This document shows positions 3,793 through 24,457 of a stretch of 64,000 bases of DNA, piece after piece (the stretch's first letter is position 1; each line of letters opens with the position of its first letter). Position numbers and translations under genes: made by a program. Where the stretch lies: assembly GCA_902521795.1 (NCBI GenBank), contig CABYSX010000005.1:1-64000 (forward strand), given 5' to 3'. Under the pieces are notes generated by a model. That model saw nothing but the letters and a program-made list of their open reading frames with translations, was not told where the DNA came from and made no database searches. The stretch comes from an uncultured Alphaproteobacteria bacterium. GTDB lineage: Bacteria; Pseudomonadota; Alphaproteobacteria; HIMB59.

Positions 3793-4785
3793 ATGATTAG
3801 GTCTTTAGAAAAAAAATTACAAAAAATAAAAAAACAAATTTATAAACCCAAAGATTTTATTATTGCAGATGCTAAAGATGGCGATATGGCAATGGGTATT
3901 ACTTCCCCAGGCCCTAAAAGAGATATCAAGGGTAAAATTTGTAAGTCTTTTAAGAAGTTAGATGATTATAAACAAGCTATGGTAACAATGTCTAAATCAA
4001 ATCTTGTAGATATTATGTTAATGTCTGCATCAACTGGTGAAGATTTAATTAAAAAAAAGATATTTAGTAATTCCAAAGTTACTCCTGCTATTCGAATGAA
4101 TGACACTACAGATATTTGGTTAATGAGAAATGGTAATTACAGGTCTACTAACCCAAGACCTTTTCGATCTGCCCGACTAAATAGTATATCAAAATTTGCG
4201 AATTTAGGATTATTTTCAATGACATTCTCTAAAAGTGTTGATTTTGACTTAGCAATGTTAAATGCTTACAGGGATTTTAGAATTGAGGCTCTAAAATATA
4301 AATTTAACCATTTCTTGGAAGTATTTAATCCTCCAATTAATATTGGCTTGGAATCAAATGAACTGGGCGACTATATTAATGATTGCATCATTAAAGCTAT
4401 CGCAGGACAAACTACAGAGGAAAGACCACTATTTTTGAAGATTGCTTATAATGGCCCTAAAGCAATGGAGGAATTGGCTACTTATGATCCTGAAAATTTA
4501 ATCATTGGTATATTAGGTGGTAGTAAGGGAACCACCAGAGATTGTTTTGAATTAATTAATAAAGCCAGCAATTATGGTGCAAAGGTTGCTCTTTTTGGAA
4601 GAAAAATAAATCTATCTGAGGATCCAATTTTATTAGTAAAGCTAATGAGGGCGGTCATTGAAAAAAACGTAAATTCTATTGAGGCTGTAAAATTATATCA
4701 TAGTGAATTAATTAAAAAAAAAATACAACCTGATCACACTCTTAAGAAAGACCTCCAAATAACCGACCCTATTTTGAAATTATAA
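3793..4785 (+). CDS. unrecognised protein, possibly a class I aldolase-like TIM barrel
   Basis: I do not recognise this 330-residue protein with certainty. It lacks a signal peptide and membrane segments, so it is probably a cytoplasmic enzyme. Hints of a beta/alpha barrel of the class I aldolase type are: an opening strand FIIADAKDGDMAMG (residues 22-35), a strand LFLKIAYNG with K216 where Schiff-base lysines often sit, then GGSKGTT (242-248) and VALFGRKIN (265-273), which resemble the phosphate-binding ends of strands 7 and 8. It is divergent from xylB and convergent with the PfkB kinase (6-base overlap), so it belongs to the same sugar cluster. An aldolase acting on a phosphorylated ketose is a reasonable guess, not a finding. 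Confidence 0.5.
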   Translation: MIRSLEKKLQKIKKQIYKPKDFIIADAKDGDMAMGITSPGPKRDIKGKICKSFKKLDDYKQAMVTMSKSNLVDIMLMSASTGEDLIKKKIFSNSKVTPAIRMNDTTDIWLMRNGNYRSTNPRPFRSARLNSISKFANLGLFSMTFSKSVDFDLAMLNAYRDFRIEALKYKFNHFLEVFNPPINIGLESNELGDYINDCIIKAIAGQTTEERPLFLKIAYNGPKAMEELATYDPENLIIGILGGSKGTTRDCFELINKASNYGAKVALFGRKINLSEDPILLVKLMRAVIEKNVNSIEAVKLYHSELIKKKIQPDHTLKKDLQITDPILKL

Positions 4786-5754
4786 TTTTTTAATATTAGG
4801 TAAATTGCCTGAAGATGAGTCAATTTTCATCATAGCTGATCCCGCAGCATGAGACTTTTTCAGTGTATCCTCAATTGCCCAGTCTTCATGGACACCATAA
4901 ATAAATCCGGCACAAAAAGCATCACCCGCTCCAACAGCATTTTTAATATGTTTTTTTTGAATTTTGGGTGACTCTGAGTGATAAAAATCTTTTTTAGAAA
5001 TATATAGAGACTCAAGGGGGCTATGAATAACAATAGCTCTTTGAAGACCTTTTTGAAAAACGTTTTTAGATAATTTAATTAATAAATTTTTTTTTAGTCG
5101 TTTTTTTGAGTCTATAATTGATCTTTTAAACAGTAGTTGAGCCTCTATTTCATTTAGTAAAAGATAATCAGTAAAAGGCAGGGCACTGAAAATAATTTTT
5201 TGAAAGTTAGGGATATTATTTGAAGCTAAATCAAGAATGTTGATTAGGTTCTTTTTTCTTGATTGTTTAAGGACTTTGCAAAGTCTTGTCTGTTTACCAT
5301 CAAAAGAGTCTAGTTTTCCTAAAAGGCTGAGATACCCTATATATAAAATTTTAGGTTTTTTTTTGAGTTTATTTAATCTGAAATGTTTTGTATCTAATAA
5401 TGCATTTGCTCCCGAGTAATACAGAAATGTTCTTTCTTTTTGTTCCTCAGACATACATACTACTTGTGATGTTGGTGTGGTGCTTGAAATTATAAAATTA
5501 TTTATTTGTATATTGTTTTTCTTACAGTGTTTTTTTATTATTAAAGCATTAGCATCTTTCCCCAGCAAACCCATTGCTATCAAAGGATGATTGAAACCTA
5601 AAGAGTTAAGATTAGTTAAAACGTTTGATGGCCCACCTCCAACACATTGAAAGCTATCTAATATTGGCTCTAATTTTCCTCTTTCAGGTAATTCACTGAT
5701 TTTATAAGTGGTATCAACACACCAGATACCTAGGCCTATTACGCCTTTATTCAT
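4780..5754 (-). CDS. PfkB-family carbohydrate kinase
   Basis: This is a 324-residue ribokinase-fold sugar kinase. The N-terminal substrate region has GGGPSNVLTNLNSLG (about residues 38-52). The C-terminal PfkB signature NAVGAGDAFCAGF carries the catalytic Asp and anion hole. The start ATG touches the last base of the lyxose isomerase stop, so the two are translationally coupled on the minus strand. Substrate is unknown: xylulose, fructose or another ketose are candidates from context. If it phosphorylates C1 of a ketopentose, the aldolase-like neighbour could split the product; that is speculation. It is clearly different from the second PfkB kinase at 7977. Confidence 0.75.
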   Translation of the reverse strand: MNKGVIGLGIWCVDTTYKISELPERGKLEPILDSFQCVGGGPSNVLTNLNSLGFNHPLIAMGLLGKDANALIIKKHCKKNNIQINNFIISSTTPTSQVVCMSEEQKERTFLYYSGANALLDTKHFRLNKLKKKPKILYIGYLSLLGKLDSFDGKQTRLCKVLKQSRKKNLINILDLASNNIPNFQKIIFSALPFTDYLLLNEIEAQLLFKRSIIDSKKRLKKNLLIKLSKNVFQKGLQRAIVIHSPLESLYISKKDFYHSESPKIQKKHIKNAVGAGDAFCAGFIYGVHEDWAIEDTLKKSHAAGSAMMKIDSSSGNLPNIKKL

Positions 5755-6419
5755 TAAATTTCATTCCATAAAAGATGTATTGCAGGTTCATCCTCTAAGA
5801 TATCACTAAACCTTCCAACTGGTTCAAGGAAGTAATTATCTTTATTATCATCATTAACTTGAGACACTTCTCCGGCCATCACCATACCAGTGCCTGCTAC
5901 TGCATAAAATTTATGATAGACGTTTCTATCAACAGTTACGCTTTGTCCTCTTTTAAGTATTAATGGTTTATGAGGATGAATTTTTATAATTTTTCCATCA
6001 ACCAAAACCTCAATTTCTTTTTGAAGTTCTCTAAAATCTTTGTCTACTTCTAAAAATTCAATAGCTAAATCTCCCCCTCCTCTATTGATAATATCTTCTA
6101 ATTTAACCTTATGGCTATGAAATGGAATTTCTTGTCCTTCCTGCATAAAAAGTAATTTCTCAGCATATGGTTTGTCATCCATGACTCCTTGTACTCCATT
6201 ACGAATACAAAACAAAGTAATGCCTTGACTGTTAAAATTATCTTTTCCAAAGTCAGTTACATCCCATCCCATCTGATGACTTTTCAAGTATTTCCTTATT
6301 TCAGGTTTATCTTTGTAATCCTCTTTTGACCAATAGCCCCATTCTGGAAGAGTCCAATTGTATTCATCCATCATTTTTTTTGCAGTGTTTATTGCTGCAT
6401 TGATTTCTGATCGCTTCAT
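5754..6419 (-). CDS. D-lyxose isomerase (cupin, DUF1498 family)
   Basis: It interconverts D-lyxose and D-xylulose (and often D-mannose and D-fructose) with a divalent metal in a cupin barrel. The start was set at MKRSEIN, the conserved beginning of the family, 14 codons after a possible upstream ATG at 6461. This gives 221 residues, the usual length. Visible features are the conserved FCIRNG, the metal ligands in IPFHSHKVKLEDI (His-x-His), a GGGDLAIEF strand and a later HKFYAVAG with another ligand His. It heads a minus-strand operon with the PfkB kinase and lies near xylB, which uses D-xylulose. The family assignment is strong; mannose as the true substrate cannot be ruled out. Confidence 0.82.
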   Translation of the reverse strand: MKRSEINAAINTAKKMMDEYNWTLPEWGYWSKEDYKDKPEIRKYLKSHQMGWDVTDFGKDNFNSQGITLFCIRNGVQGVMDDKPYAEKLLFMQEGQEIPFHSHKVKLEDIINRGGGDLAIEFLEVDKDFRELQKEIEVLVDGKIIKIHPHKPLILKRGQSVTVDRNVYHKFYAVAGTGMVMAGEVSQVNDDNKDNYFLEPVGRFSDILEDEPAIHLLWNEI

Positions 6420-6464
6420 AGAACTTAGATTATCAAAAATAGAAATAATTGATATAATCATATA

Positions 6465-7481
6465 ATGAAGACTATTATTGTTGATCCGTTCCCTCGTGAA
6501 ATGGACTTAATTTTTAAACCAAATAAGATTAAGCTTTTAAAAAAAAACTTCAAAATTATAAATGCTCCAAGTAAAAATAAATTAAAATTTTATAAGCAAC
6601 ATATTTCAGAGGCTGATTTTATTATTGGGCAACCCGATCTCCCAAAGTCAATATTAACTTTAGCCTCAAAACTAAAAGCAATTTTCAATGTTGAAAGTAA
6701 TTTTATGGATAACATGGATTACGATTACTGTTTTAAAAATAATATATATGTTTTATCTACAGCTCCTGTTTTTGCACAAAGTGTTGCAGAAATTGCTGTT
6801 GGTTTAACAATCTCTTTAAAACGGGATATACACAAAGCTCATTTAGATTTTTTTCAAAAAAAAGAAAAATATGGTTTGGAGAGCAATTTACGAAGTAGTT
6901 TGTTACTAGATAACAAAATCGGTTTTATTGGTTTTGGAGACTTGGCTAAAAGTCTTAAGCCTATGTTAATGCCATACACATCCAATTTTAAAGTTTATGA
7001 TCCTTGGCTCCCGAATAAGTTAATAGAGGCCAATGGATGTAAATCAGCGTCATTGAAAGAAATTTTTAAAGATTGTGATGTGGTTTATGTACTTGCAACA
7101 ATAACTACAAAAAATAAGAGTATGATAGATAAAAAACTTTTGAAGTTAATGAAGAAAGATACCTGCTTGCTAATCCTAAGCAGAGCTAGTGTTATTAATT
7201 TTCAAGATTTAAATGAAATTTTAAATAAAGATAAAATTAAAGTTGCTACAGATGTGTTTCCTCAAGAACCAGTGCCAAAAAACGACCCAATTAGAAAAAA
7301 GAAGAGTATTCTTTTCTCTGCTCACAGAGCTGGTGCTTTAGAGAGTGTTTTTTTTGAAATGGGAGATATCGTTTGTGAAGATTTACTTTTAATGACAAAA
7401 GGCCTGCCACCTAGACTTTGTCGCCGAGCAGAATTAGAAACAGTTAAAAATTTACGTTCAAAACCAGTAGATATAAATTAA
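6465..7481 (+). CDS. D-isomer-specific 2-hydroxyacid dehydrogenase
   Basis: This is an NAD(P)-dependent oxidoreductase acting on a D-2-hydroxy acid such as glycerate, glyoxylate or 3-phosphoglycerate. The 338 residues contain the Rossmann motif IGFIGFGDLAKS (the third Gly of GxGxxG is Ala), the catalytic Arg in SRASVINF, the Glu/Asp segment DVFPQEP and the catalytic His in SAHRAG. It is divergent from lyxose isomerase, with only 45 bases between the starts, and opens a rightward series of sugar genes. A role in oxidising or reducing a two- or three-carbon acid made from sugar cleavage is plausible. The true substrate cannot be told from sequence. Confidence 0.78.
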   Translation: MKTIIVDPFPREMDLIFKPNKIKLLKKNFKIINAPSKNKLKFYKQHISEADFIIGQPDLPKSILTLASKLKAIFNVESNFMDNMDYDYCFKNNIYVLSTAPVFAQSVAEIAVGLTISLKRDIHKAHLDFFQKKEKYGLESNLRSSLLLDNKIGFIGFGDLAKSLKPMLMPYTSNFKVYDPWLPNKLIEANGCKSASLKEIFKDCDVVYVLATITTKNKSMIDKKLLKLMKKDTCLLILSRASVINFQDLNEILNKDKIKVATDVFPQEPVPKNDPIRKKKSILFSAHRAGALESVFFEMGDIVCEDLLLMTKGLPPRLCRRAELETVKNLRSKPVDIN

Positions 7482-13676: not shown

Positions 13677-14507
13677 ATGTTTGAGGCAATAGAAAAGATC
13701 TTAGACTTAAAAGAATTTAAAGAAGAAATATTTAAAGGAAAAATTTTTGTTTTTCAAAAATCACAATTCACTCTCGATTTAATTCAAAAAATTAAGACTG
13801 AGATTAGTAGTGAGTATGATGGAGAGCTAGAAAAAATTCATTATTTAAATGAATGTGAAGCAATTAGTACTAACCTGGTATCAAATCTGAAAAATTCAAA
13901 GATTTTTAAAGAATTATTTAAGAGTTTTTTAATAGAAAGAGGTTTTTATAATAATAATTCTTATTGGGACCAGTTTAGAATAAGAATTGCACCTGCTGAA
14001 AATAGATTTAATTACCGAGAGGCTTCAAGAATTAGCTCACATCGAGATACATGGGGAACAAATATTCATCAACAAATTAATTGGTGGGGACCTATTAGTT
14101 CTATTGACGAAACAAATACAATGATTTTTTATCCTGAATTCTTTTCTAAACCTGTAAAAAATTCTACATCTACTTGGGACCTCAATACCTACTTGGACCA
14201 TAGAAAAAGAAATGATTTTTCTTATCCATCTGCCCCTCAGATGTTAGAGGAATTACCTGAACAAGTTAAAATTCTTCCTGTAACTATCCAGCCAGGGGAA
14301 ATACTTTGTTTTTCTGGATGTCATCTTCATAGCTCATCTAAGCAAAAATCAGAAAAAACAAGGTTTAGCTTTGAAATTCGCACTATTTGTCAACAAGATT
14401 TGGATGATAAATCACAAGCTCCAAATACTGATTGTGATCTAAAATGGCAATTTCCTAAAATTTTTAGGAATATGAATGACAATTCGCCTTTGAAATTTAC
14501 TAGATGA
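13677..14507 (+). CDS. putative Fe(II)/2-oxoglutarate dioxygenase (phytanoyl-CoA dioxygenase-like)
   Basis: This is probably a non-haem iron oxygenase of 276 residues. The facial triad can be seen as H122-x-D124 (in SSHRDTWG) and a distal His at 216 or 218 (in FSGCHLHSSS), with R229 (EKTRFS) placed to hold 2-oxoglutarate. INWWGPI and MIFYPEFF are typical jelly-roll strands. The start codon follows the phosphofructokinase stop with no gap, so it must be translated from the same mRNA. The substrate is unknown, and a link with glycolysis is not expected for the family. Confidence 0.65.
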   Translation: MFEAIEKILDLKEFKEEIFKGKIFVFQKSQFTLDLIQKIKTEISSEYDGELEKIHYLNECEAISTNLVSNLKNSKIFKELFKSFLIERGFYNNNSYWDQFRIRIAPAENRFNYREASRISSHRDTWGTNIHQQINWWGPISSIDETNTMIFYPEFFSKPVKNSTSTWDLNTYLDHRKRNDFSYPSAPQMLEELPEQVKILPVTIQPGEILCFSGCHLHSSSKQKSEKTRFSFEIRTICQQDLDDKSQAPNTDCDLKWQFPKIFRNMNDNSPLKFTR

Positions 14508-14535: not shown

Positions 14536-15786
14536 GTGAAAAAAAAATATTCAATATTTAGTATCGCCAAAAATGCTTTAAAGGGTCATAAGGATTGGCC
14601 GAAAATGTGGCGAAGTCCAGAACCAAGAGAGTTTTATGATGTTATTATAATTGGTGGTGGCGGTCACGGTCTTGGTACTGCCTACTATTTAGCTAAAGAA
14701 CATGGTTTAAAAAATATTGCTGTAATTGAAAAAGGTTGGCTTGGTGGAGGTAATACTGGAAGAAATACAACTATCATAAGATCAAATTATTTGTGGGATG
14801 ACAGCGCTCATTTGTATGAGCATTCTCTTAAACTTTGGGAAAATTTATCAACTGAATTAAATTATAATGTTATGTTTAGTCAACGAGGTGTGATGAACCT
14901 TGCTCACAACGAACATGATATAAAAGAAATTAAAAGAAGAGTAAGTGCAAATAATTTAAATGGCATAGACTCGCTTTGGCTCTCTAAAGAGGAAATTCAA
15001 AAAAAGGTTCCTATCATGAATACCGACAATCTTCGCTATCCTGTTCTTGGTGCATCTTACCAACCTAGAGGTGGGACTGCTCGACATGATGCTGTTGCTT
15101 GGGGATTTGCTATGCGTGCAGATGAAATGGGAGTAGATATAATTCAAAACTGTGAGGCGCATCAAATTAAAACTAAAAACGGAAAAATAGAGGGTGTAGA
15201 AACATCTAAAGGTTTTATTCGAGCCAATAAAGTTGGTGTAGTTGCATCAGGACACACTGGTGTTCTAGCTGAGACTGCTGGTATCAGACTTCCACTACAA
15301 AGCAAACCTCTACAAGCTTTAGTTTCTGAGCCAATAAAACCAATTATTGATACTGTTGTAATGTCATCTGCTGTTCATGCTTATGTAAGCCAGTCTGATA
15401 AGGGTGAACTTGTAATAGGCGCAGGAACAGATAGCTATAATTCCTTCACACAGCGTGGTGGTTTTAATATCATAGAGGAGACTGTGAGAGCTATGGTCGA
15501 GCTTTACCCCGTGTTTGGAAAAATGAAAATGCTTCGTCAATGGGGAGGAATTGTCGATATTTGTCCTGATGCAAGTCCTATAATAAGTAAATGTGATGTT
15601 GAGGGATTATTTTTTAATTGTGGTTGGGGCACAGGTGGTTTTAAAGCGACACCCGGAAGTGCTAATGTATTTGCCCATACAATTGCTAAAAATCAGGCCC
15701 ATCAAATAAATAGTGCTTTTAATTTAGATAGATTTGCAAGCGGAAAACTAGTTGATGAACATGGGGCTGCAGCAGTAGCCCATTAA
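14536..15786 (+). CDS. soxB: sarcosine oxidase subunit beta
   Basis: This is the catalytic flavoprotein subunit of heterotetrameric sarcosine oxidase, which demethylates sarcosine to glycine with transfer of the C1 unit to THF. It has 416 residues and starts with GTG at 14536; the N-terminal [10 protein letters not shown]...WRSPEP block is typical of SoxB, which supports this start. It contains the dinucleotide motif [18 protein letters not shown] (36-53) and H184 in [12 protein letters not shown], the position expected for covalent FMN attachment. It is the first gene of soxBDAG. The C-terminal [13 protein letters not shown] matches the family. Confidence 0.93.
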
Positions 15787-15792
15787 TTCAAC

Positions 15793-16143
15793 ATGCTTAT
15801 TATCGACTGTCCGTACTGCGGTCCAAGAGACCAATCCGAATTTTCTAACGGTGGTGAAGCTCATGTTAAGCGGCCCGATGGATCTGCTGAAATTGGAGAT
15901 CGAGAATGGGGCGAATATGTTTTTATCAGAGCAAATCCAAAAGGAATTTTTTATGAAAGATGGGTTCATTCCCATGGATGCCGAAAATGGTTTAATTGTG
16001 TAAGAGATACATCTACCGATGAAATTTTAAAAATATATAAAATTGATGAAGAAAGACCAAAGCTAGATAGTTTTAAAAATAATGTAAAAACTCCATCAGG
16101 AGAACCAAACTTAGGATCAGGTAATTTTACAGTTAAAAAATGA
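15793..16143 (+). CDS. soxD: sarcosine oxidase subunit delta
   Basis: This is the small zinc-binding subunit of heterotetrameric sarcosine oxidase, with 116 residues against a usual 90-100. It has the conserved start LIIDCPYCGPRDQSEF, with the Cys pair at C6 and C9, and the later HSHGCRKWFN block giving His and Cys ligands. It lies 6 bases after soxB, and its TGA overlaps the soxA ATG, so it is part of a tight operon. Confidence 0.92.
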   Translation: MLIIDCPYCGPRDQSEFSNGGEAHVKRPDGSAEIGDREWGEYVFIRANPKGIFYERWVHSHGCRKWFNCVRDTSTDEILKIYKIDEERPKLDSFKNNVKTPSGEPNLGSGNFTVKK

Positions 16144-19118
16144 GTGAGTTGAATTTAACAGATAATAAGTTTATCCAATTTCATCAAAAAATAGGATTTA
16201 AATTTGATGGTGTAAAATATTACGGTTACAAAGGTGATACTATAGCCTCAGCTTTACTTAGAAATAACTTAAAGTTAATCGGAAGAAGTTTTAAATATCA
16301 TAGACCTCGTGGTTTTTATACTTGCGGTATAGAAGAGCCAAATGCTTTAGTACAAATAATTAGTGAATATTCGGAGCCAAATACAAGAGCTACCATAAAA
16401 AAGATTTATGAGGGCATGGAAATCGAAAGTCAAAATAGATGGCCTTCGTTAGAGACAGATATTGGAAGTATAAACAATATATTTTCACCAGTTTTTCCAG
16501 CAGGTTTTTATTACAAGACGTTTATGGGTCCTCATAAAAATTTTTGGAAAAAAATTTATGAGCCTATTATTAGAAAAGCCGCGGGTCTTGGCAAGCCTCC
16601 AAAAGAATTTAAAGCCGTTAGTACTCATCTTCATCATAATGTTGACATAACTATTGTTGGTGGAGGTTTGAATGGGCTTATTGCTGCAAAGAGTTTAATC
16701 GATACAAAATATAGTGTTCTTCTTATTGATTTTGACGATCAACTGGGTGGTATTTTGAATAACTCTAATAAAGTTCTAAGTGTGAATAATCAAACACCAA
16801 TGGACTGGATTAGTGAAACTGTTAAAGAAATCGAAAACTCTAAAAATATAAAAATATTAAAAAATACTTTAGTGACAACGTACAATTATATTAATCATCT
16901 AATTGCTGTTGAAGATAAATTTGTTGGATCTCGACCTTTGAAAGATAAAGTTAATAGCACTCTTCATAAAATTAGAACTGACCAAGTTATTTTATGCAAC
17001 GGTCATATAGAAAGATTTTTATCTTTTCAAAATAATGACCTACCAGGCATTATGTTGTGCTCATCATTTGAAAAATATATGTGTAGATATGGGGTGCTAC
17101 CCTCAAAGGAAACTGTTATTTTTAGCAATAACTCTAATTCTGAAAGTCTAGTATTTAGCCTTATCAAAAAGGGCTTTAAGCCAAAAGCTTACATCGACTC
17201 ACGCTCAGGCGAAAATATCGAACCAGACTTGTTTGATTTAATAAGAAAAAATGACATTCCTTTATACACTAATTCTCAAATTAAAGGGGCATACGGAAAT
17301 AAAAAATTACAAAAAATATTAGTTGAAGATAGTTCAGGGGGAGTTAATGAAATTAAAACAGATTTTTTATGTTTGTCTGGTGGTATCAATCCAGATGTTC
17401 ACTTGTTTACTCAGTCCAAAGGCTTATTAGATTGGGATGAAAAAGATTTAACCTATAAGCCCGCTCAAGCTTTTCAACCCACAATAACACTTGGCTCAGC
17501 TTCTGGGCAATTTGACTTTAATGCCATTAATAAGGAAATTAATGAAAAATTAGTTATATTTGGCATTAAACCTGTCCAAATTAAACTAGAACTAAATACA
17601 AGTCACAAATTTAAAATTGAAAAATTGTGGGAAGTTTTACCACAAAAACAAACTATTTGGTCAAAATCATTTATAGATTTACAAAATGATGTCACCACAA
17701 AAGATATAAGACAAGCTATCTCAGAGGGTTTTGATCGAATTGAACATCTCAAAAGATACACCACTAACAGCATGGGAACGGACCAAGGTAAAATAAGTAG
17801 TATAAATGCTTTGGGTATAGTTTCTGATTTACTCGATAAGAAAGTTAATGAAGTAGGAACAACAATTTACAGACCTCCTTATGCTCCTTTGAGTTTTGCT
17901 GCAATAGCAGGAAGAAATTCATATGAATATTACGACCCAGAGAGGAAATCACCGATTCATAATTGGCATATAACTAATGGTGCTGTTTTTGAGGATGTTG
18001 TTCAATGGAAAAGACCTTGGTATTTTCCAATAAATAAAGATGAAACTATGGACGAAGCCGTTCAACGAGAAAGTAAAAATGTAAGAGAAAATGCTGGGGT
18101 CTTGGATGGTAGCACTCTAGGAAAAATTGAGATTAAAGGTAGGGATGCATTAGCTTTCATGAATCTAATATATACAAATAGTTTCTCCAAAATGAAACCT
18201 GGCACCTCAAGATATGCCCTGATGTTAGGAGAGGATGGTATGGTAAAAGATGATGGTATTATTTGTAAAATCTCAGATGAGCATTTTATAGCAACTACTA
18301 CTACTGGAGGCGCAGCAACTGTTTTAGGATGTATGGAAGAATATGCTCAAACTGAATGGCCCAACTTAAATGTCTATATGAATTCTATAACTGAGCAGTA
18401 TGCTACAATTAATATCAGTGGTCCAAAAACAAGAAATATAATCGAGAAAGTTTTCCCAGAGGTTAATTTTAGCAATGAAGCTTTCCCATTCATGACATTT
18501 CAATTTCATGAATATGAAGACACTCCCATAAGAATTCTTAGAGCTAGTTTTACTGGAGAAATGGGTTATGAGATATATGTACCTTCAAATCAAGCTCTAA
18601 AAATATGGGAAAAAATAATAAGTTTTGGAAAGGAGTTTGGTTTGATGCCTTATGGTACTGAGACCATGCACCTTTTAAGAGCTGAAAAAGGATACATCAT
18701 AGTTGGTCAAGATACGGACGGATCAATTACACCTCTTGATTTAGGTTTAGATTGGATGATTGGAAAATCAAAAAAAGATTTTTTAGGAAAACGATCTTTA
18801 ATCCGTTCTGATACAGTTAGAAAAGACAGAAAGCAGCTCGTAGGAATTTTACCAACTAACAAGAATGAGAAGTTAGAAGAAGGTCAACACATAATTTTAG
18901 ATAAAGAAATAAAAACTCCAACTCCAATGCTAGGACATATAACATCATGTTATCAAAGTCCTACTTTAGGACATAACTTTGCTCTAGCTGTTATCAAAAA
19001 TGGTCAGTCACTTATTGGAACTAAAGCATTTGCATCAACTCCTGAATTAAAAACAATAGAAGTTGAGATAGTTGAACCAATTTTTTATGATAAAGAAAAT
19101 TCAAAGCTAGCTTCATGA
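16140..19118 (+). CDS. soxA: sarcosine oxidase subunit alpha
   Basis: This is the large subunit, 992 residues, binding NAD+ and THF. Order of parts: an N-terminal ferredoxin-like segment (GDTIASALLRNN, SFKYHRPRGFYTCG), a Rossmann domain ITIVGGGLNGLIAAKSL near residue 170, a cytochrome-c-reductase-like middle, and a C-terminal GcvT-type folate domain (about 600-990) with SFTGEMGYEIYVPS and ETMHLLRAEKGYIIVGQDTDG. It works with SoxB, SoxD and SoxG to move the sarcosine methyl group to 5,10-methylene-THF. It overlaps soxD and soxG by 4 bases each. Confidence 0.93.
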   Translation: MSELNLTDNKFIQFHQKIGFKFDGVKYYGYKGDTIASALLRNNLKLIGRSFKYHRPRGFYTCGIEEPNALVQIISEYSEPNTRATIKKIYEGMEIESQNRWPSLETDIGSINNIFSPVFPAGFYYKTFMGPHKNFWKKIYEPIIRKAAGLGKPPKEFKAVSTHLHHNVDITIVGGGLNGLIAAKSLIDTKYSVLLIDFDDQLGGILNNSNKVLSVNNQTPMDWISETVKEIENSKNIKILKNTLVTTYNYINHLIAVEDKFVGSRPLKDKVNSTLHKIRTDQVILCNGHIERFLSFQNNDLPGIMLCSSFEKYMCRYGVLPSKETVIFSNNSNSESLVFSLIKKGFKPKAYIDSRSGENIEPDLFDLIRKNDIPLYTNSQIKGAYGNKKLQKILVEDSSGGVNEIKTDFLCLSGGINPDVHLFTQSKGLLDWDEKDLTYKPAQAFQPTITLGSASGQFDFNAINKEINEKLVIFGIKPVQIKLELNTSHKFKIEKLWEVLPQKQTIWSKSFIDLQNDVTTKDIRQAISEGFDRIEHLKRYTTNSMGTDQGKISSINALGIVSDLLDKKVNEVGTTIYRPPYAPLSFAAIAGRNSYEYYDPERKSPIHNWHITNGAVFEDVVQWKRPWYFPINKDETMDEAVQRESKNVRENAGVLDGSTLGKIEIKGRDALAFMNLIYTNSFSKMKPGTSRYALMLGEDGMVKDDGIICKISDEHFIATTTTGGAATVLGCMEEYAQTEWPNLNVYMNSITEQYATINISGPKTRNIIEKVFPEVNFSNEAFPFMTFQFHEYEDTPIRILRASFTGEMGYEIYVPSNQALKIWEKIISFGKEFGLMPYGTETMHLLRAEKGYIIVGQDTDGSITPLDLGLDWMIGKSKKDFLGKRSLIRSDTVRKDRKQLVGILPTNKNEKLEEGQHIILDKEIKTPTPMLGHITSCYQSPTLGHNFALAVIKNGQSLIGTKAFASTPELKTIEVEIVEPIFYDKENSKLAS

Positions 19119-19636
19119 AGGATGTAATTCGATCAAATGGTATTGAAATTAAAAAAATTATCTCACAACAAATTGTTTTAAGAAGTTCTGGTAACTCAGA
19201 TTTCAACGGTGTTGTGAACAAGGCATTAAAACTCCTTCCCCCTTCTGATAATTTGAGAATAGTTACCAATGATAATTTTATTTTAGCTAAAATGTCTTTT
19301 GATCAATGGAATTTAGTTTTTAAGAAAGATATTGAACAAAAAAAATTTCACAAACTCTGTGATACTTTTAATAAATCTAGTTCAATTTTGGCAACTAACC
19401 TGACAGACTCACAAATATTTTTTCAAGTTGGTGGCGATAATGCTACTATGATATTAAATAAACTCACACATTTTGATTTTCGTGAAAAATCCTTTAAACC
19501 TTTTACAGCTGCTCAAACTTTATTGGCTAGAATTGATTGTTCCATTTTTAATTTAGATAACGTAATACTTTTAAGCTGTGGTCGATCATTTAGTGATTAC
19601 CTAGAAGATCGTCTAATTGACGCGGTTAATCTGTAA
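19115..19636 (+). CDS. soxG: sarcosine oxidase subunit gamma
   Basis: This 173-residue protein is in the fourth position of a soxBDAG operon. It has the weakly conserved GcvT-like fold of the gamma subunit, with TNLTDSQIFFQVGGDNATMILNK and TLLARIDCSIF segments. Gamma sequences diverge fast, so the call depends partly on position and length. It overlaps soxA by 4 bases. It is the last gene before a 63-base gap. Confidence 0.85.
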   Translation: MKDVIRSNGIEIKKIISQQIVLRSSGNSDFNGVVNKALKLLPPSDNLRIVTNDNFILAKMSFDQWNLVFKKDIEQKKFHKLCDTFNKSSSILATNLTDSQIFFQVGGDNATMILNKLTHFDFREKSFKPFTAAQTLLARIDCSIFNLDNVILLSCGRSFSDYLEDRLIDAVNL

Positions 19637-19699: not shown

Positions 19700-22174
19700 A
19701 TGAAAAAAAAATCTAGGATTATTATTGTTGGAAGTGGGATAGTTGGTGCGAGCACCGCATATCATTTAGCCCAATTAGGTTGGAAAGATATGGTAATTCT
19801 TGATCAAGGTCCTTTATTTGAAACCGGAGGTTCTACTAGTCATGCTCCAGGTGGTGTATTTCAAACTAATCCATCTAGAATGATGTGCAAATTTGCTCAA
19901 TATACTGTTGAACTTTTGAGATCTCTAACTTTTGATGGAAAACCTTGTTATCACACTGTTGGAGGAATTGAGGTCTCTAAATCTAAAGAGAGGCATGAGG
20001 ACTTATATAGAAAACTTGGAATTGCACATAGTTATGGACTTCAAGATGCTAAAATTATTTCGCCAGATGAAGTTTTAAAAATGAGTCCTTATATTGATCC
20101 TGAAAAAATTCATGGTGGATATTATGTGCCCACTGATGGTCTTGCAGCACCAGTTAGAGCTGTAAAAGCTATGGCAAAATATGTAACAGATTTAAAAGCT
20201 GGAGAATTTATAGGTGATACAGCTGTTAAAGGTTTTAAAATTTCTAATAATCAAATTCGAGGAGTGCAGACTTCAAATGAGGATTATGATGCCGATATTG
20301 TTTTAGTCTCAACAGGTATTTGGGCGCCCAAAATGGGAAGACTCGCAAATATCTCTTTACCTCTGGTGCCTTGTGAACATCAAATGGTTTGGCTTGAGCC
20401 TTTTGAAGAATTAAAAGAATATCAGGCTGACCACAAGGAAGCATTGGTAGATCATGCCTTAGTTCGTCATCAAGATTACAGTCTCTATTTCAGGCAATGG
20501 AATGACTCTTATGTAATTGGGAATTATAGACATGAGCCAAGAATTTTAGAATCTGAAGATATAAAAAAACCTGAAGAGGCAGAGGAGATGCCCTCTTTAG
20601 TTGATTTCAGACCTGATGATTTTGCTGGGGCGCACAAAGAGTCTAATTGGCTATTTCCTAAATTTGCTGAGAAAAAATTAACTAAAAAGATTAATGGGAT
20701 GTTTTCATTTACTACAGATGGTAATCCTTTGATGGGAGAAACTTCAGTAAAAGGTTTGTGGACGGCAAATGCTGTTTGGATTACGCATAGTGGCGGCGTT
20801 GGAAAGGCAATGGCAGAATGGATTGTCAATGGCGAACCTGAACTTGACGTTCGTCAAGGTGATATAAATCGTTTCCATCAGCACCATCACGTCAGAAAAT
20901 ACTTACGAGCACGAGGAAAACAAAATTACAAAGAGGTTTACGACATCATTCATCCTTTACAACAAATGGAGCAACCAAGACCACTCAGGAGAAGTCCTTT
21001 TTATAATAGATTAGAAGGCCAAAAAGCTTATTTTTTTGAAACTATGGGATGGGAGCGTCCGCAATGGTATGAGGCTAATGCTGATTTAATGAAAGGAAAA
21101 AACTTTCCTAATCGAACTGGTTGGGCGGCAAAATATTGGTCCCCAATTCAAGCAGCAGAACATTTAGTTACAAGACAAACAGGTGCTCAATTTGATATCA
21201 CTGGTTTTGTAAAGATTGAAGTAAGTGGTAAAGGTGCCTTAAAGTTACTTCAAAAAGTCTGTACAAATAATATTGATGTTCCTGTTGGAAAAGTTGTCTA
21301 TAGCGTTATCTCCAATATATATGGTGGAATTAAAAGTGATCTTACTATAAGTCGATTAGAAGAAAACAAATTTTGGGTTTTAGCAGGAGCAGGAAATGGT
21401 ATGATTGATATTAATTGGCTTCGCTCTAATGCTCCTAATGATGGAAGTGTTCAAATCATTGATTGGACTTCCGCTTACGCAGGTATTGGTTTGTGGGGTC
21501 CAAATTCTAGATTAGCTCTTCAAAAACTTTGTGATGATGACGATGTTTCAAATGAAGGTTTCCCATTTTTTAGTATAAAAAGAATTTCAATTAGTAACGT
21601 TCCATGCATAGCGGTAAGAATATCTTACATAGGTGAGTTGGGATGGGAGATTTACACTCCTACAGAATATGGTTTAACTTTATGGGATGAACTTAGAGAA
21701 ACCTCAAGAGAATTTAATATGATTTGCTCAGGAGCTGGTGCCTTTGAGTCTCTTAGATTAGAAAAAGGATATAGATCACTTGGCTCAGATATTCACACAA
21801 ATTATAATCCCTATGAGTCTGGTTTAGGTTTTACTGTTAAGCTAAAGAAAGATGAAGACTTTATTGGTAAGTCTGCTTTACAAAAAATTAAAGAAAAACC
21901 AGTTCAAAAAAAATTAACTTGTATGATTTTAGAAGACCCTGAGGGAATAGCTTTAGGCACAGAGCCTATTTACAGTAACGGCAAGGCTGTGGGTTATGTT
22001 ACAAGCACTAATTATGGATATTTTGTAGATAAACATATTGTTTACGGCTACCTCCCATCAGAGTTATCAGAAAATGGGACAGCTTTAGAATTAGAATATT
22101 TTGGAAAAAGATATCCATTAAAGGTAACTCAAGAGCCTTTGTTAGACCCAGAAAACAATAGATTAAAGTCTTAA
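19700..22174 (+). CDS. dimethylglycine/sarcosine dehydrogenase-type FAD-folate enzyme
   Basis: This is a two-domain flavoprotein of 824 residues that oxidatively demethylates an N-methyl amine (dimethylglycine or sarcosine) and passes formaldehyde to THF. The N-terminal DAO domain has IIIVGSGIVGASTAYHLA (7-24) and H48 in GSTSHAPGG, matching the covalent FAD histidine of mammalian dimethylglycine dehydrogenase. The C-terminal half is a GcvT-type folate domain (CTNNIDVPVGKVVYS, SYIGELGWEIYTPT, SLRLEKGYRSLGSDI). It lies between soxG and the MTHFR gene, in line with betaine breakdown. Dimethylglycine is preferred because sarcosine already has soxBDAG; the exact substrate is not proven. Confidence 0.85.
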   Translation: MKKKSRIIIVGSGIVGASTAYHLAQLGWKDMVILDQGPLFETGGSTSHAPGGVFQTNPSRMMCKFAQYTVELLRSLTFDGKPCYHTVGGIEVSKSKERHEDLYRKLGIAHSYGLQDAKIISPDEVLKMSPYIDPEKIHGGYYVPTDGLAAPVRAVKAMAKYVTDLKAGEFIGDTAVKGFKISNNQIRGVQTSNEDYDADIVLVSTGIWAPKMGRLANISLPLVPCEHQMVWLEPFEELKEYQADHKEALVDHALVRHQDYSLYFRQWNDSYVIGNYRHEPRILESEDIKKPEEAEEMPSLVDFRPDDFAGAHKESNWLFPKFAEKKLTKKINGMFSFTTDGNPLMGETSVKGLWTANAVWITHSGGVGKAMAEWIVNGEPELDVRQGDINRFHQHHHVRKYLRARGKQNYKEVYDIIHPLQQMEQPRPLRRSPFYNRLEGQKAYFFETMGWERPQWYEANADLMKGKNFPNRTGWAAKYWSPIQAAEHLVTRQTGAQFDITGFVKIEVSGKGALKLLQKVCTNNIDVPVGKVVYSVISNIYGGIKSDLTISRLEENKFWVLAGAGNGMIDINWLRSNAPNDGSVQIIDWTSAYAGIGLWGPNSRLALQKLCDDDDVSNEGFPFFSIKRISISNVPCIAVRISYIGELGWEIYTPTEYGLTLWDELRETSREFNMICSGAGAFESLRLEKGYRSLGSDIHTNYNPYESGLGFTVKLKKDEDFIGKSALQKIKEKPVQKKLTCMILEDPEGIALGTEPIYSNGKAVGYVTSTNYGYFVDKHIVYGYLPSELSENGTALELEYFGKRYPLKVTQEPLLDPENNRLKS

Positions 22175-22192: not shown

Positions 22193-23074
22193 ATGAGCAA
22201 AGATAATATCGTATCTTTATTAAATGGTTTTACAGTCGAACTAAATCCAAAAGTAAGACATAAATTAAATTCAATTCCACTAGATAAAAAAAATAATGTT
22301 TATATTACTTATCTTCCTGACGCTACTGAAAAGGATATTTTAGAAACAGTTGAATTTGTTTCTAATCAAAATTTAGTTCCCATTACTCATTTACCTGCAA
22401 GGACAATGAAAGACCTAGAACACGTTTCAAGTTTTTTGAAAGAACTTAGAAAAAGAACTGATAGTAAAAAAATATTGGTTATTGGAGGTGGAGGTAATCA
22501 AAATGGATCTATCTCCTCTTCTCTAGAAATATTAGAGTCTGATTTGCTAAATGATAACGATTTCACTGAGATTGGTGTTGCTGGACATCCTGAGGGATCT
22601 CCAGATATAAATCAAGAAACTATTAATGACTTTTTAAATAAAAAGTATGACCTTTCTCAAAATAAAAATTTAAATATAGAGTTAGTAACACAGTTTTTTT
22701 TTAATGCCTCGCCTTTCATAGACTGGTGTCAGGATTTAAAGGCAAAAAATATTAATTTACCAGTAAGAGTTGGTTTCCCAGGTCCTGCATCATTTAAGAC
22801 CTTACTAAACTTTGGAATAATGAGCGGGGTAGGAAATTCGATAAATTTCCTAAAAAAAAATTCCTCTAAAGTAACTGATCTTCTCACGAAAACATCTAAT
22901 GATGATATGCTTATTGAATTAGCTAATTTTGCTCAGGGTGAAAACCCACTAAAAAGCTTTCACTGTTTTCCTTTTGGTGGATTTGAAAAAACTTGTTTAT
23001 GGTTAAATGCTGTCCAAAGTGGTGAATTTACAATTGATAATAGTAAAATAGTCCTCCACAAAAAAATTTTTTAA
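22193..23074 (+). CDS. divergent 5,10-methylenetetrahydrofolate reductase (MetF-like)
   Basis: This is a 293-residue MTHFR-fold flavoprotein. The catalytic Glu is in GFTVELNPK (E16, equivalent to E28 in the FEFFPP of E. coli MetF), followed by YITYLPDATEKDILETV, PITHLPARTM and the FAD loop EIGVAGHPEGSPDINQE. The strand that in MetF ends ALRGD here reads VIGGGGNQNG, so the folate-binding Asp (D120 of E. coli) is replaced. It follows the dimethylglycine dehydrogenase by 18 bases and precedes the DmdA-like gene. In this place it may run in the direction methyl-THF -> methylene-THF for catabolism instead of making methyl-THF for methionine. Confidence 0.78.
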   Translation: MSKDNIVSLLNGFTVELNPKVRHKLNSIPLDKKNNVYITYLPDATEKDILETVEFVSNQNLVPITHLPARTMKDLEHVSSFLKELRKRTDSKKILVIGGGGNQNGSISSSLEILESDLLNDNDFTEIGVAGHPEGSPDINQETINDFLNKKYDLSQNKNLNIELVTQFFFNASPFIDWCQDLKAKNINLPVRVGFPGPASFKTLLNFGIMSGVGNSINFLKKNSSKVTDLLTKTSNDDMLIELANFAQGENPLKSFHCFPFGGFEKTCLWLNAVQSGEFTIDNSKIVLHKKIF

Positions 23075-23128
23075 CCATACGATTTTGATTGCATACAACA
23101 GAAAAAGAAATTAATTTTTTTCCATTGC

Positions 23129-23148
23129 TACAATAGCTTTACTGGAGG
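23129..23148 (+). promoter_or_regulatory. -10 box and strong ribosome binding site of the DmdA-like gene
   Basis: TACAAT (23129-23134) resembles a -10 element. GGAGG (23144-23148) lies 4 bases before the ATG at 23153 and is one of the best Shine-Dalgarno sequences in the window. Together with the downstream terminator this marks an independently expressed gene. Confidence 0.5.
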
Positions 23149-23152
23149 ATAA

Positions 23153-24457
23153 ATGAAGCTAACACAACCAAGCACAGTGGACCAGTCAGACAGACAAGTC
23201 CCTTATAACTTAAGACAATCTGGTCCAACACCACAACAAATGTTGATTTCAACAAGAGTTAGAAAATCTGCCTATTGGCATTTATCAGTAGAGGCTGGAT
23301 GTTGGAGATGTACTGTTTATAACCGAATGTATCATCCTAGAGGATACGTAAGGCCTGAGGATGGCGGTGCAATGGTAGAGTATGATGCACTTGTAAATCA
23401 TGTAACCATGTGGAATGTCGCTGTAGAGAGACAAATTAGAGTCAAAGGTCCTGATGCACTAAAGTTTACAAACTACGTAATTACAAGAGATGCTTCAAGA
23501 ATTGAAGTTATGAATGGTAAATATGTAATTTTATGTAATAGCAAGGGAGGAGTTTTGAATGATCCAATCTTGTTAAGAGTTGCTGAGGATGAATTTTGGT
23601 TTTCTTTATCTGACTCCGATATCATGTTTTTCCTTCAAGGTGTTAATCATGATAAAAAATTTAATGTTACTATTGATGAAATAGATGCTGCACCTGTTCA
23701 AATTCAAGGACCTAAGTCTGTTGATTTAATGGCAGATCTTGTAGGCGAAGCGGTAAGAGATATTCCATATTATGGTTTGATGGAAGCTAAAGTTGGAGGA
23801 AGAGATTGTATAATTTCTCAAACAGGATTCACAGGTGAAAAGGGTTATGAGATTTACCTCAAAAATGCAACTCTATATGCTGATGATATGTGGTATGCAG
23901 TTTTAGATGCAGGTAAAAAACATAATTTAAAAGTAATCGCTCCTGCTCACCACAGAAGAATAGCAGCAGGAATTTTATCTTGGGGTCAAGATCTTGACTC
24001 AGAGACTTACCCGTTCCAGTGCAACCTAGGATATCAAGTTCCAAGAAAAAAAACTGATGATTATATAGGTAAAGATGCTTTAGAAGCTATGAGAGCCAAA
24101 ATGGAAGCTGGAGAAAAGCCTTACAGCAATCAGTTAGTTGGCTTCGCTCTTGGTGGCAAACCAATAGATGAATATGCTCCTGATTTTTGGCTAGTTTCTG
24201 AAGATGGTAATACACCAGTTGGATACTTAACATCTCCTTGGTACTCTCCTGAATTAGAAACAAATATTGCAATGGGATATGTGCCGTATGAAAAAAAAGA
24301 TATTGGAAACAAATTCAAATTTCATTTACCTGATGCATATTGTGATACACCTGGTCAACCAGTTGATGGGGAAATTGTTGAAATACCTTTTAGACCGTCT
24401 GTTAATCCAAATGCCAGAGAGATCGCAAAATCTGAAGGTAGAGATACCGCTTACTAA
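23153..24457 (+). CDS. DmdA/GcvT-family folate-dependent methyltransferase (possible DMSP demethylase)
   Basis: This is a 434-residue single-domain folate enzyme of the aminomethyltransferase superfamily. It is closer to DmdA than to housekeeping GcvT: RVRKSAYWHLSVEAG, VYNRMYHPRG, HVTMWNVAVERQIRVKGPDA, WFSLSDSDIM and AAPVQIQGPKS recall DMSP demethylase blocks. It is about 60 residues longer than SAR11 DmdA (369), with an N-terminal extension and a longer C-terminus. True DmdA moves a DMSP methyl to THF giving methyl-THF, which suits the adjacent MTHFR. Other members of this clade may act on other methylated compounds, so function is open. It has its own RBS and terminator. Confidence 0.6.
   Translation: MKLTQPSTVDQSDRQVPYNLRQSGPTPQQMLISTRVRKSAYWHLSVEAGCWRCTVYNRMYHPRGYVRPEDGGAMVEYDALVNHVTMWNVAVERQIRVKGPDALKFTNYVITRDASRIEVMNGKYVILCNSKGGVLNDPILLRVAEDEFWFSLSDSDIMFFLQGVNHDKKFNVTIDEIDAAPVQIQGPKSVDLMADLVGEAVRDIPYYGLMEAKVGGRDCIISQTGFTGEKGYEIYLKNATLYADDMWYAVLDAGKKHNLKVIAPAHHRRIAAGILSWGQDLDSETYPFQCNLGYQVPRKKTDDYIGKDALEAMRAKMEAGEKPYSNQLVGFALGGKPIDEYAPDFWLVSEDGNTPVGYLTSPWYSPELETNIAMGYVPYEKKDIGNKFKFHLPDAYCDTPGQPVDGEIVEIPFRPSVNPNAREIAKSEGRDTAY

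Follow-up and report, generated by a model that had tools for sequence, protein, structure and literature searches.

The analysed window of 64,000 nucleotides (contig CABYSX010000005.1 of GenBank assembly GCA_902521795.1, from an uncultured alphaproteobacterium of the HIMB59 lineage) contains a same-strand run of genes in the order soxB-soxD-soxA-soxG-dimethylglycine oxidase-like. Its 3′ end is formed by two further genes, which encode a divergent methylenetetrahydrofolate reductase (MTHFR)-like protein and a methyltransferase related to the dimethylsulfoniopropionate (DMSP) demethylase DmdA, and which are the subject of this work (Table 1). Both open reading frames are intact at exactly the positions originally noted, with a gap of 18 bases ahead of the MTHFR-like gene and of 78 bases between the two. 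A preliminary description based on the sequence had regarded the pair as a possible methyl-tetrahydrofolate (methyl-THF) oxidation module, attached to the betaine pathway and acting on DMSP or another methylated compound. The side-by-side arrangement was confirmed and recurs in other genomes, and gene linkage together with genome co-occurrence supports the attachment of such a module to the betaine pathway. Judged from sequence, the pair probably represents a vitamin B12-free enzyme for methyl transfer from betaine to folate and its methyl-oxidizing partner, recurring in SAR11 relatives and other bacteria. An Rfam scan detected no riboswitch in the window, one tRNA being the sole element to reach its gathering score.

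Table 1. Coordinates of the gene pair, of the preceding genes in the window and of PhyH-like genes at other loci
Feature	Position	Strand	Size	Basis
Putative methyl-THF oxidase (reverse methylene-THF reductase), MTHFR-like, MetF2/SYK-6 MetF subfamily	22193..23074	+	293 aa	family, fold, context elsewhere
Putative glycine betaine:THF methyltransferase, DmdA-like, GCV_T family	23153..24457	+	434 aa	family scans, tree, motifs
Dimethylglycine oxidase/dehydrogenase-like flavoprotein with GCV_T domain	19700..22174	+	824 aa	top PDB match 1pj5 (N,N-dimethylglycine oxidase), E 6.8e-215
soxB, sarcosine oxidase beta subunit	14536..15786	+		TIGR01373 675.4 bits (cut-off 529.45)
soxD, sarcosine oxidase delta subunit	15793..16143	+		PF04267 125 bits (cut-off 27)
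soxA, sarcosine oxidase alpha subunit	16140..19118	+		TIGR01372 1123.6 bits, slightly below cut-off 1164; SO_alpha_A3 and GCV_T domains
soxG, sarcosine oxidase gamma subunit, divergent	19115..19636	+		PF04268 26.5 bits (cut-off 21); TIGR01375 30 bits (cut-off 143.95)
PhyH-like Fe(II)/2-oxoglutarate oxygenase, possible further operon member	13677..14507	+		weak family matches below cut-offs; recurrence beside the pair in other lineages
PhyH-like members elsewhere	L042:8900-9799; L050:3001-3858; L184:11260-12129; L198:4875-5915

Relationship of the two proteins to known families

Pfam recognizes GCV_T and GCV_T_C as the only domains of the 434-residue protein, which belongs to none of the known betaine demethylase families PF02574 (BHMT), PF00848 (GbcA) and PF06253 (MtgB). 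The top NCBIfam model is that of DMSP demethylase (NF009133; 258.6 bits, not reaching the equivalog cut-off of 410), and the top PDB match is the structure of DmdA from P. ubique (3tfh, E 1.6e-45). The GcvT model TIGR00528 gave 154.5 bits, below its cut-off of 235.85. The phylogenetic comparison with DmdA and GcvT, suggested in the preliminary description, yielded a maximum-likelihood tree of 64 rows (34 DmdA-like rows from the window and 33 of 81 loci, 11 of the 13 DmdA copies above cut-off, and 19 others), in which the DmdA-like rows constitute one clade (support 100/100). Its closest relatives in the tree are DmdA and DmdA2 rows, which together make up the sister group (98/97); it lies outside the DmdA clade itself, whereas the domains of GcvT, SoxA, dimethylglycine oxidase and trimethylamine N-oxide (TMAO) demethylase are placed apart from it. 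The tree is midpoint-rooted and contains six GcvT rows (NCBIfam confirmed all three that were scanned); the program flagged long branches, and DmdA2 was not recovered as a single clade. Identity with GcvT was rejected on the basis of the TIGR00528 score and the lack of grouping with the GcvT rows. All 91 DmdA-like rows, many of which are near-copies, carry the NDP motif of DmdA in place of the DDL of GcvT. A replacement of the catalytic Asp of GcvT had also been considered and was ruled out, as the alignment retains this Asp and the preceding residue differs. Conservation is high: the 13 alpha- and gammaproteobacterial rows compared are 70-79% identical to the window row, and the proteins encoded at loci L002-L041 (single-amplified and metagenome-assembled genomes, here termed the HIMB59 clade) are 89-100% identical to it; one of these loci, L010, bears the name HIMB59. 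The AlphaFold2 model, built from 14 close rows, is poor (pLDDT 54.2, pTM 0.45).

The relationship to DmdA raises the possibility that the protein is an isoform of DMSP demethylase, as the sister position and the common NDP motif would allow. The Trp of the DmdA SGW motif (W171) is described as DMSP-specific in the available text of PMC7487153; it corresponds, by our own mapping of the alignment numbers given there, to Phe226 of the DmdA-like protein. This Phe is invariant in a 14-row alignment and present in 89 of the 91 rows; L182 carries Trp and L187 did not fit the search pattern. Locus L182 (genome G045), counted at E<=1e-100, scores 535 bits compared with at least 786 for the rest and may not be a member of the group. 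The same position is occupied by Tyr in two of the 13 DmdA rows above cut-off (L082, L091). Moreover, the genome of the window encodes a separate DmdA on another contig (506.6 bits, above the curated cut-off), and among 30 mostly draft genomes carrying the DmdA-like gene, 13 also have a DmdA above cut-off and 17 have no such match. Together with the subthreshold score and the betaine-pathway neighbourhood, these data render a DMSP demethylase isoform extremely improbable, and the proposal of DMSP as substrate was not upheld. Most likely, as far as family comparison can tell, the 434-residue protein is a DmdA paralogue with a different job.

Demethylation of methylmercaptopropionate (MMPA), the product of DmdA, was guessed in 2011 for SAR11_1265 beside metF because of its closeness to DmdA (PMC3160333, available part), and the 13 carriers with DmdA fit this view. 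We nevertheless regard it as very improbable in view of the 17 carriers lacking a DmdA match above cut-off and of neighbours that are N-methyl rather than sulfur genes, although a DddP-like gene (below the DddP cut-off) occurs near some Pelagibacteraceae copies. Being a thioether, MMPA also donates a methyl group less readily than an onium ion does.

As a separate observation, the DmdA2 group (L147:11593-12732, L095, L096, L097 and L148) scores 327-395 bits with the DmdA model, below the cut-off of 410, stands between DmdA and the DmdA-like clade, and retains the DMSP-site Trp in all five rows.

The partner protein reaches 22.5 bits with the Pfam MTHFR model, slightly below the cut-off of 24, and matches the MTHFR structure 7xg9 with residues 8-271 (E 5.8e-39). 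A profile of 16 relatives scores 283 bits against the MTHFR of Sphingobium SYK-6 and 51 bits against the runner-up structure. The AlphaFold2 model (pLDDT 86) likewise retrieves SYK-6 MTHFR (7xlf, Z 31.1, root mean square deviation 2.4 over 275 residues), followed by E. coli MTHFR with a Z of 21. Profile and model agree in placing the protein in the SYK-6 MetF subfamily; the designation MetF2 rests on this closeness and on gene context, the MetF2 of Ruegeria being likened by description. Outside the HIMB59 clade the MTHFR-like partner is 25-34% identical, compared with 70-79% for the DmdA-like protein. Where SYK-6 MTHFR has the Asp of its VIAGD stretch, HIMB59 carries Gly, Rhodospira and Roseospira carry Ser, and Pelagibacteraceae have either residue; the remaining MTHFR-like rows of the alignment retain the Asp, while an N-terminal Glu is nearly invariant. 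The loss of this Asp is possibly linked to the oxidative running direction that we predict.

Alternatively, the pair might be biosynthetic, with the MTHFR running forward to supply methyl-THF for methionine and the DmdA-like protein acting on formaldehyde or methylene-THF in the manner of the oxidases' GcvT domains. Sarcosine and dimethylglycine oxidation do yield methylene-THF, and short MetE-like PF01717 frames were found in 10 of 14 HIMB59-clade genomes and in none of four Pelagibacteraceae genomes scanned. However, the 11 HIMB59-clade genomes inspected (some of them drafts; that of the window is 84.8% complete) yielded no MTHFR besides this one and no PF02574 frame of MetH size, and no PF01717 frame above 384 residues occurs in the genomes scanned for this family, so that providing methyl-THF to a methionine synthase is not likely to be the task of the MTHFR-like protein. 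Rhodospira and Roseospira additionally possess a canonical MetF beside MetH, the MTHFR subfamily stands beside methyl-THF-forming systems elsewhere, and the clade and NDP motif of the methyltransferase are of the DmdA and not the GcvT type. A biosynthetic role is thus improbable.

Linkage and distribution across genomes

The two genes are adjacent (<300 bases apart) in 40/40 loci of the HIMB59 clade, 19/19 of the Pelagibacteraceae, 8/21 others and 2/11 further loci of a class sample; the pairing exceeds chance. Genes for dimethylglycine or sarcosine oxidases lie nearby in 40/40, 14/19, 13/21 and 7/11 of these loci, respectively. Twelve of the 19 Pelagibacteraceae loci have genes for OpuAC and then a permease directly ahead of the MTHFR and DmdA-like genes, all on one strand, with 48-64 bases before the MTHFR gene. 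OpuAC was assigned by Pfam (PF04069) in L063 and by our own profile in the remaining loci; the permease, scanned in one locus, scores best with choline/betaine permease models, yet below their cut-offs.

The PhyH-like oxygenase gene that opens the HIMB59 operon is present in 35 of 40 loci of this clade. Outside HIMB59, four lineages have a member of its family close to the DmdA-like gene, to the MTHFR gene or to that for dimethylglycine dehydrogenase. Pfam assigns at most 20.3 bits to these members (cut-off 22) and nothing to that of L184. Possibly the oxygenase constitutes a third component of the module; none was detected in the pair loci of Rhodospira.

A survey of 385 Alphaproteobacteria genomes (thresholds of 1e-100, 1e-40 and 1e-60, chosen by us) comprised at least 19 genomes with the DmdA-like protein, at least 69 with the MTHFR subfamily and at least 81 with an MTTB/MtgB-family protein, these counts being lower bounds since at most four, six and three candidates, respectively, were scored per genome. 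Without L182 the DmdA-like count is 18; the MTHFR of G045 lies near a DmdA2 gene. In the co-occurrence check suggested in the preliminary description, the two genes are associated beyond their local linkage: the MTHFR subfamily is present in 15 of the 19 genomes with the DmdA-like gene and in 54 of the 366 without. Among the 69 MTHFR-positive genomes, 52 possess an MTTB/MtgB-family protein and 15 the DmdA-like protein, including two with both, and four possess neither. Within this set the two partners exclude each other (Fisher p 5.6e-9, kinship ignored). At the family level, 33 of 36 MTHFR-positive families contain either partner in one genome or more; in six families (including that of G045, f18) this is solely the DmdA-like protein. 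Two of the four genomes with neither partner were viewed: in G247 a DmdA-profile match adjoins the MTHFR (L170), and in G273 a weak AMT-type match lies near it (L179). The other two, G231 and G354, fall outside the locus comparison.

Twenty MTHFR loci drawn from the 54 genomes without DmdA-like gene include 11 with an MtgD-like pterin-binding gene within ~2.4 kb, nine of which also have a RACo-type corrinoid activase; both profiles were built from five of these loci. Neither gene was detected at the DmdA-like loci (up to L160). Only one of the 20 has a dimethylglycine or sarcosine oxidase gene (soxA, L177), although these loci (L161-L180) span shorter windows than the DmdA-like ones. According to the accessible portion of PMC12478193, metF2 of Ruegeria pomeroyi is located downstream of mtgD, no other protein differed as strongly in production as MetF2 during growth on betaine, choline and carnitine, and MetF2 is the likely oxidizer of methyl-THF after MtgBCD. 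The simplest reading is that the MetF2 subfamily needs an upstream producer of methyl-THF, usually of the quaternary-amine type, and that the DmdA-like protein would replace MtgBCD in this role.

The same MTHFR subfamily also occurs with other genes of the THF methyltransferase type, namely a DmdA-profile match (L170, adjacent), DmdA2 (L193, near) and an AMT-type gene (L154), which suggests that it serves further THF methyltransferases. At the last of these loci, in Spiribacter salilacus (L154:3456-5503), the MTHFR gene overlaps a different AMT gene by one base, an arrangement that may point to a further THF-dependent demethylase equipped with a methyl-THF oxidase of its own.

Proposed reaction and its substrate

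On the combined evidence of family placement and context, it is quite probable that the two proteins act together as one module for making and oxidizing methyl-THF. To our knowledge, flavin amine oxidases leave a quaternary nitrogen unattacked, and an operon for dimethylglycine and sarcosine oxidation therefore needs a step acting on the quaternary nitrogen. Within the operon this could be provided by the DmdA-like protein or, less likely, by the PhyH-like oxygenase, for which an oxidative demethylation of a quaternary amine is possible in principle. We favour glycine betaine as substrate of the DmdA-like protein, an assignment from genomic context to which we give a somewhat better than even chance. 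The "other methylated compound" of the preliminary description would thus hold in so far as the substrate is not DMSP, but the context points to the quaternary compound with which the operon's own pathway starts, betaine, and not to a side compound.

The following scenario is proposed. The DmdA-like protein would transfer a methyl group from glycine betaine to THF, generating dimethylglycine and 5-methyl-THF in analogy to the action of DmdA on the sulfonium group of DMSP. The MTHFR paralogue (MetF2) would then oxidize 5-methyl-THF to 5,10-methylene-THF, the reaction direction being deduced, as is each catalytic step, from the observed gene content, family placement, linkage and pattern of presence and absence. 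The dimethylglycine and sarcosine oxidases would convert the next two methyl groups to the same product, 5,10-methylene-THF, and end at glycine. Overall, the operon would degrade betaine to glycine and deliver all three methyl groups into the folate pool with neither cobalamin nor homocysteine. Whether the DmdA-like protein is indeed a single-protein, cobalamin-independent glycine betaine:THF methyltransferase that stands in for MtgBCD ahead of the same MetF2 appears evenly balanced on the present sequence evidence.

Three cases are informative in this respect. Rhodospira trueperi, Roseospira marina and a Rhodospira metagenome-assembled genome hold the pair and a dimethylglycine dehydrogenase, and no PF00848, PF06253 or free-standing PF02574 protein was found in them; PF02574 occurs solely within frames of 1200-1456 residues, the size of MetH. 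With no GbcA-type Rieske oxygenase, MtgB or free BHMT found, the strongest candidate for removing the first methyl group of betaine in these bacteria is the DmdA-like protein. Across all 30 carrier genomes, PF06253 is present in two and PF00848 is absent in ten. Absence of GbcA is claimed for these ten only, the PF00848 controls having matched in four cases; the GbcA model NF058607 (E<=1e-60) matched none of the 30 carriers, but no control genome either.

Several observations weigh against betaine as substrate or against the module as a whole. The genome of the window itself has two BHMT-like genes. Of the 19 Pelagibacteraceae loci, 15 have a Rieske gene resembling that of GbcA or carnitine monooxygenase close to the pair and 10 a BHMT-like gene; among the 21 other loci the figures are three and one, respectively. 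As many carriers thus have other possible betaine demethylases, the DmdA-like protein may serve another quaternary compound. Genes for dimethylglycine or sarcosine oxidases are not seen in every locus (none, for example, in L046, L049, L057 and L058), and a dimethylglycine dehydrogenase match (Rhodospira query, E<=1e-80) was obtained neither in G022 (Spiribacter) nor in G023, although locus L059 of the latter does hold such a gene by our own profile. Four of the 19 DmdA-like genomes lack the MTHFR partner at the threshold used. Over all 385 genomes the exclusion between MTTB and DmdA-like proteins is not significant (2/19 versus 79/366, p 0.39, kinship ignored), and MTTB proteins act on several substrates. 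The MTHFRs of HIMB59, Pelagibacteraceae and Rhodospira, lacking the VIAGD Asp, could differ in activity, and the short MetE-like frames may leave some room for use of methyl-THF in methionine synthesis. Finally, no earlier example of a direct betaine:THF methyltransferase is known to us, and the substrate was assigned from context.

The principal alternative keeps the mechanism, including the oxidation of methyl-THF by the MTHFR, and changes the substrate to another onium compound such as proline betaine, beta-alanine betaine, a carnitine-like molecule or a dimethylsulfonio compound. The Rieske and BHMT-like genes near many pairs, which could already process betaine, the loci devoid of dimethylglycine and sarcosine oxidases, and the recurrent PhyH-like oxygenase all agree with it. 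We consider it rather unlikely, because of the association with genes for dimethylglycine and sarcosine oxidases and for transporters of the OpuAC type, the replacement pattern with MTTB systems in MTHFR-positive genomes, and the 70-79% identity across alpha- and gammaproteobacterial rows, which suggests one well-defined substrate.

Apart from the pair, the betaine-related genes of the window's genome show arrangements of their own. One BHMT-like gene adjoins a second dimethylglycine dehydrogenase-like gene (contig C14, L144:2307-4739, 5677-6714), which would fit a separate oxidase for each betaine demethylase. The other is situated ~4 kb from a GbcA/carnitine-oxygenase-like Rieske gene (contig C1, L142:8325-16956), in a region that also includes genes for an aldehyde dehydrogenase and a DddP-like peptidase-family protein. 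A similar grouping of Rieske, BHMT and DddP-like genes is found near the pair in the Pelagibacteraceae loci L063 and L079.

Comparison with described systems

DmdA (3tfh; NF009133) shares with the DmdA-like protein the GCV_T fold, the NDP motif, the sister position in the tree and presumably the transfer of a methyl group from an onium carboxylate to THF. The DmdA-like protein is ~65 residues longer, forms a separate clade, has Phe for Trp, scores below the model cut-off and is encoded in a betaine-type operon. In Sphingobium SYK-6, metF belongs to the ligM-metF-ligH operon, in which LigM forms 5-methyl-THF with aryl methyl ethers as methyl donors (PMC6888825, as far as available). A demethylase of the GCV_T family that produces 5-methyl-THF is thereby found beside MetF, and the SYK-6 MTHFR (7xg9/7xlf) is the nearest solved structure; LigM, however, acts on aryl methyl ethers and represents a distant GCV_T branch (44.4 bits for the 434-residue protein with the LigM model). 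MtgBCD and MetF2 of Ruegeria pomeroyi likewise transfer a betaine methyl group to THF before its proposed oxidation by a MetF paralogue (PMC12478193, accessible portion), but require several proteins, cobalamin and a corrinoid activase, in contrast to one protein without cobalamin domain here. BHMT and GbcAB perform the same first step of betaine catabolism and belong to other protein families; the methyl group is transferred to homocysteine or oxidized to formaldehyde.

A further counterpart is SAR11_1264-SAR11_1265 (metF-AMT) of Pelagibacter ubique, an adjacent pair of the same type as in the Pelagibacteraceae loci L062-L081, likened here by its description in PMC3160333; the HIMB59 pair differs in closing a soxBDAG-dimethylglycine oxidase operon. 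The available part of that 2011 study offered, besides the MMPA guess, a comparison with the MetF of Methylobacterium and possible membership in the SAR11 Ia core genome, and proposed another AMT, SAR11_1303 near opuAB/AA/AC, for betaine metabolism. By our reading of the columns in the accessible data of PMC5069961, the mRNAs of SAR11_1264 and SAR11_1265 drop together in the two stationary-phase columns. SAR11_1265 is named in two papers of the literature covered.

No description of a THF-dependent betaine demethylase of the GcvT family, or of a betaine role of this kind in HIMB59, was found among the titles and abstract beginnings listed in searches of open-licence literature. Neither these listings nor the accessible parts of the publications examined mentioned an assignment to betaine, a clade distinct from DmdA, an interchange with MTTB systems or the operon of HIMB59. 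As far as we know, such a methyltransferase in HIMB59, Pelagibacteraceae and scattered alpha- and gammaproteobacteria would be the first case of direct methyl transfer from a quaternary ammonium group to folate, a claim we hold with about equal confidence and doubt. Few osmolytes in the sea are as abundant as glycine betaine. If the proposal is true, it would account for the ability of cells with very small genomes to oxidize each of the three methyl groups and would assign a function to the gene pair reported in 2011 in SAR11, and estimates of ocean betaine turnover based on gene markers would change. According to a proposal published in 2025 (PMC12478193, accessible portion), the demethylation of betaine in SAR11 is coupled to the formation of methionine through the single enzyme Bhmt. 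Such coupling would tie betaine use to the need for methionine, whereas a B12-free transfer to THF would uncouple both.

Two side observations concern other AMT genes. A TMAO demethylase above cut-off (1150.6 versus 1100 bits) adjoins an AMT of 389 residues (L143:2471-4822, 1287-2456), and a second AMT of the same clade adjoins a TorA/BisC-like reductase (L145:3373-4569, 4575-6914).

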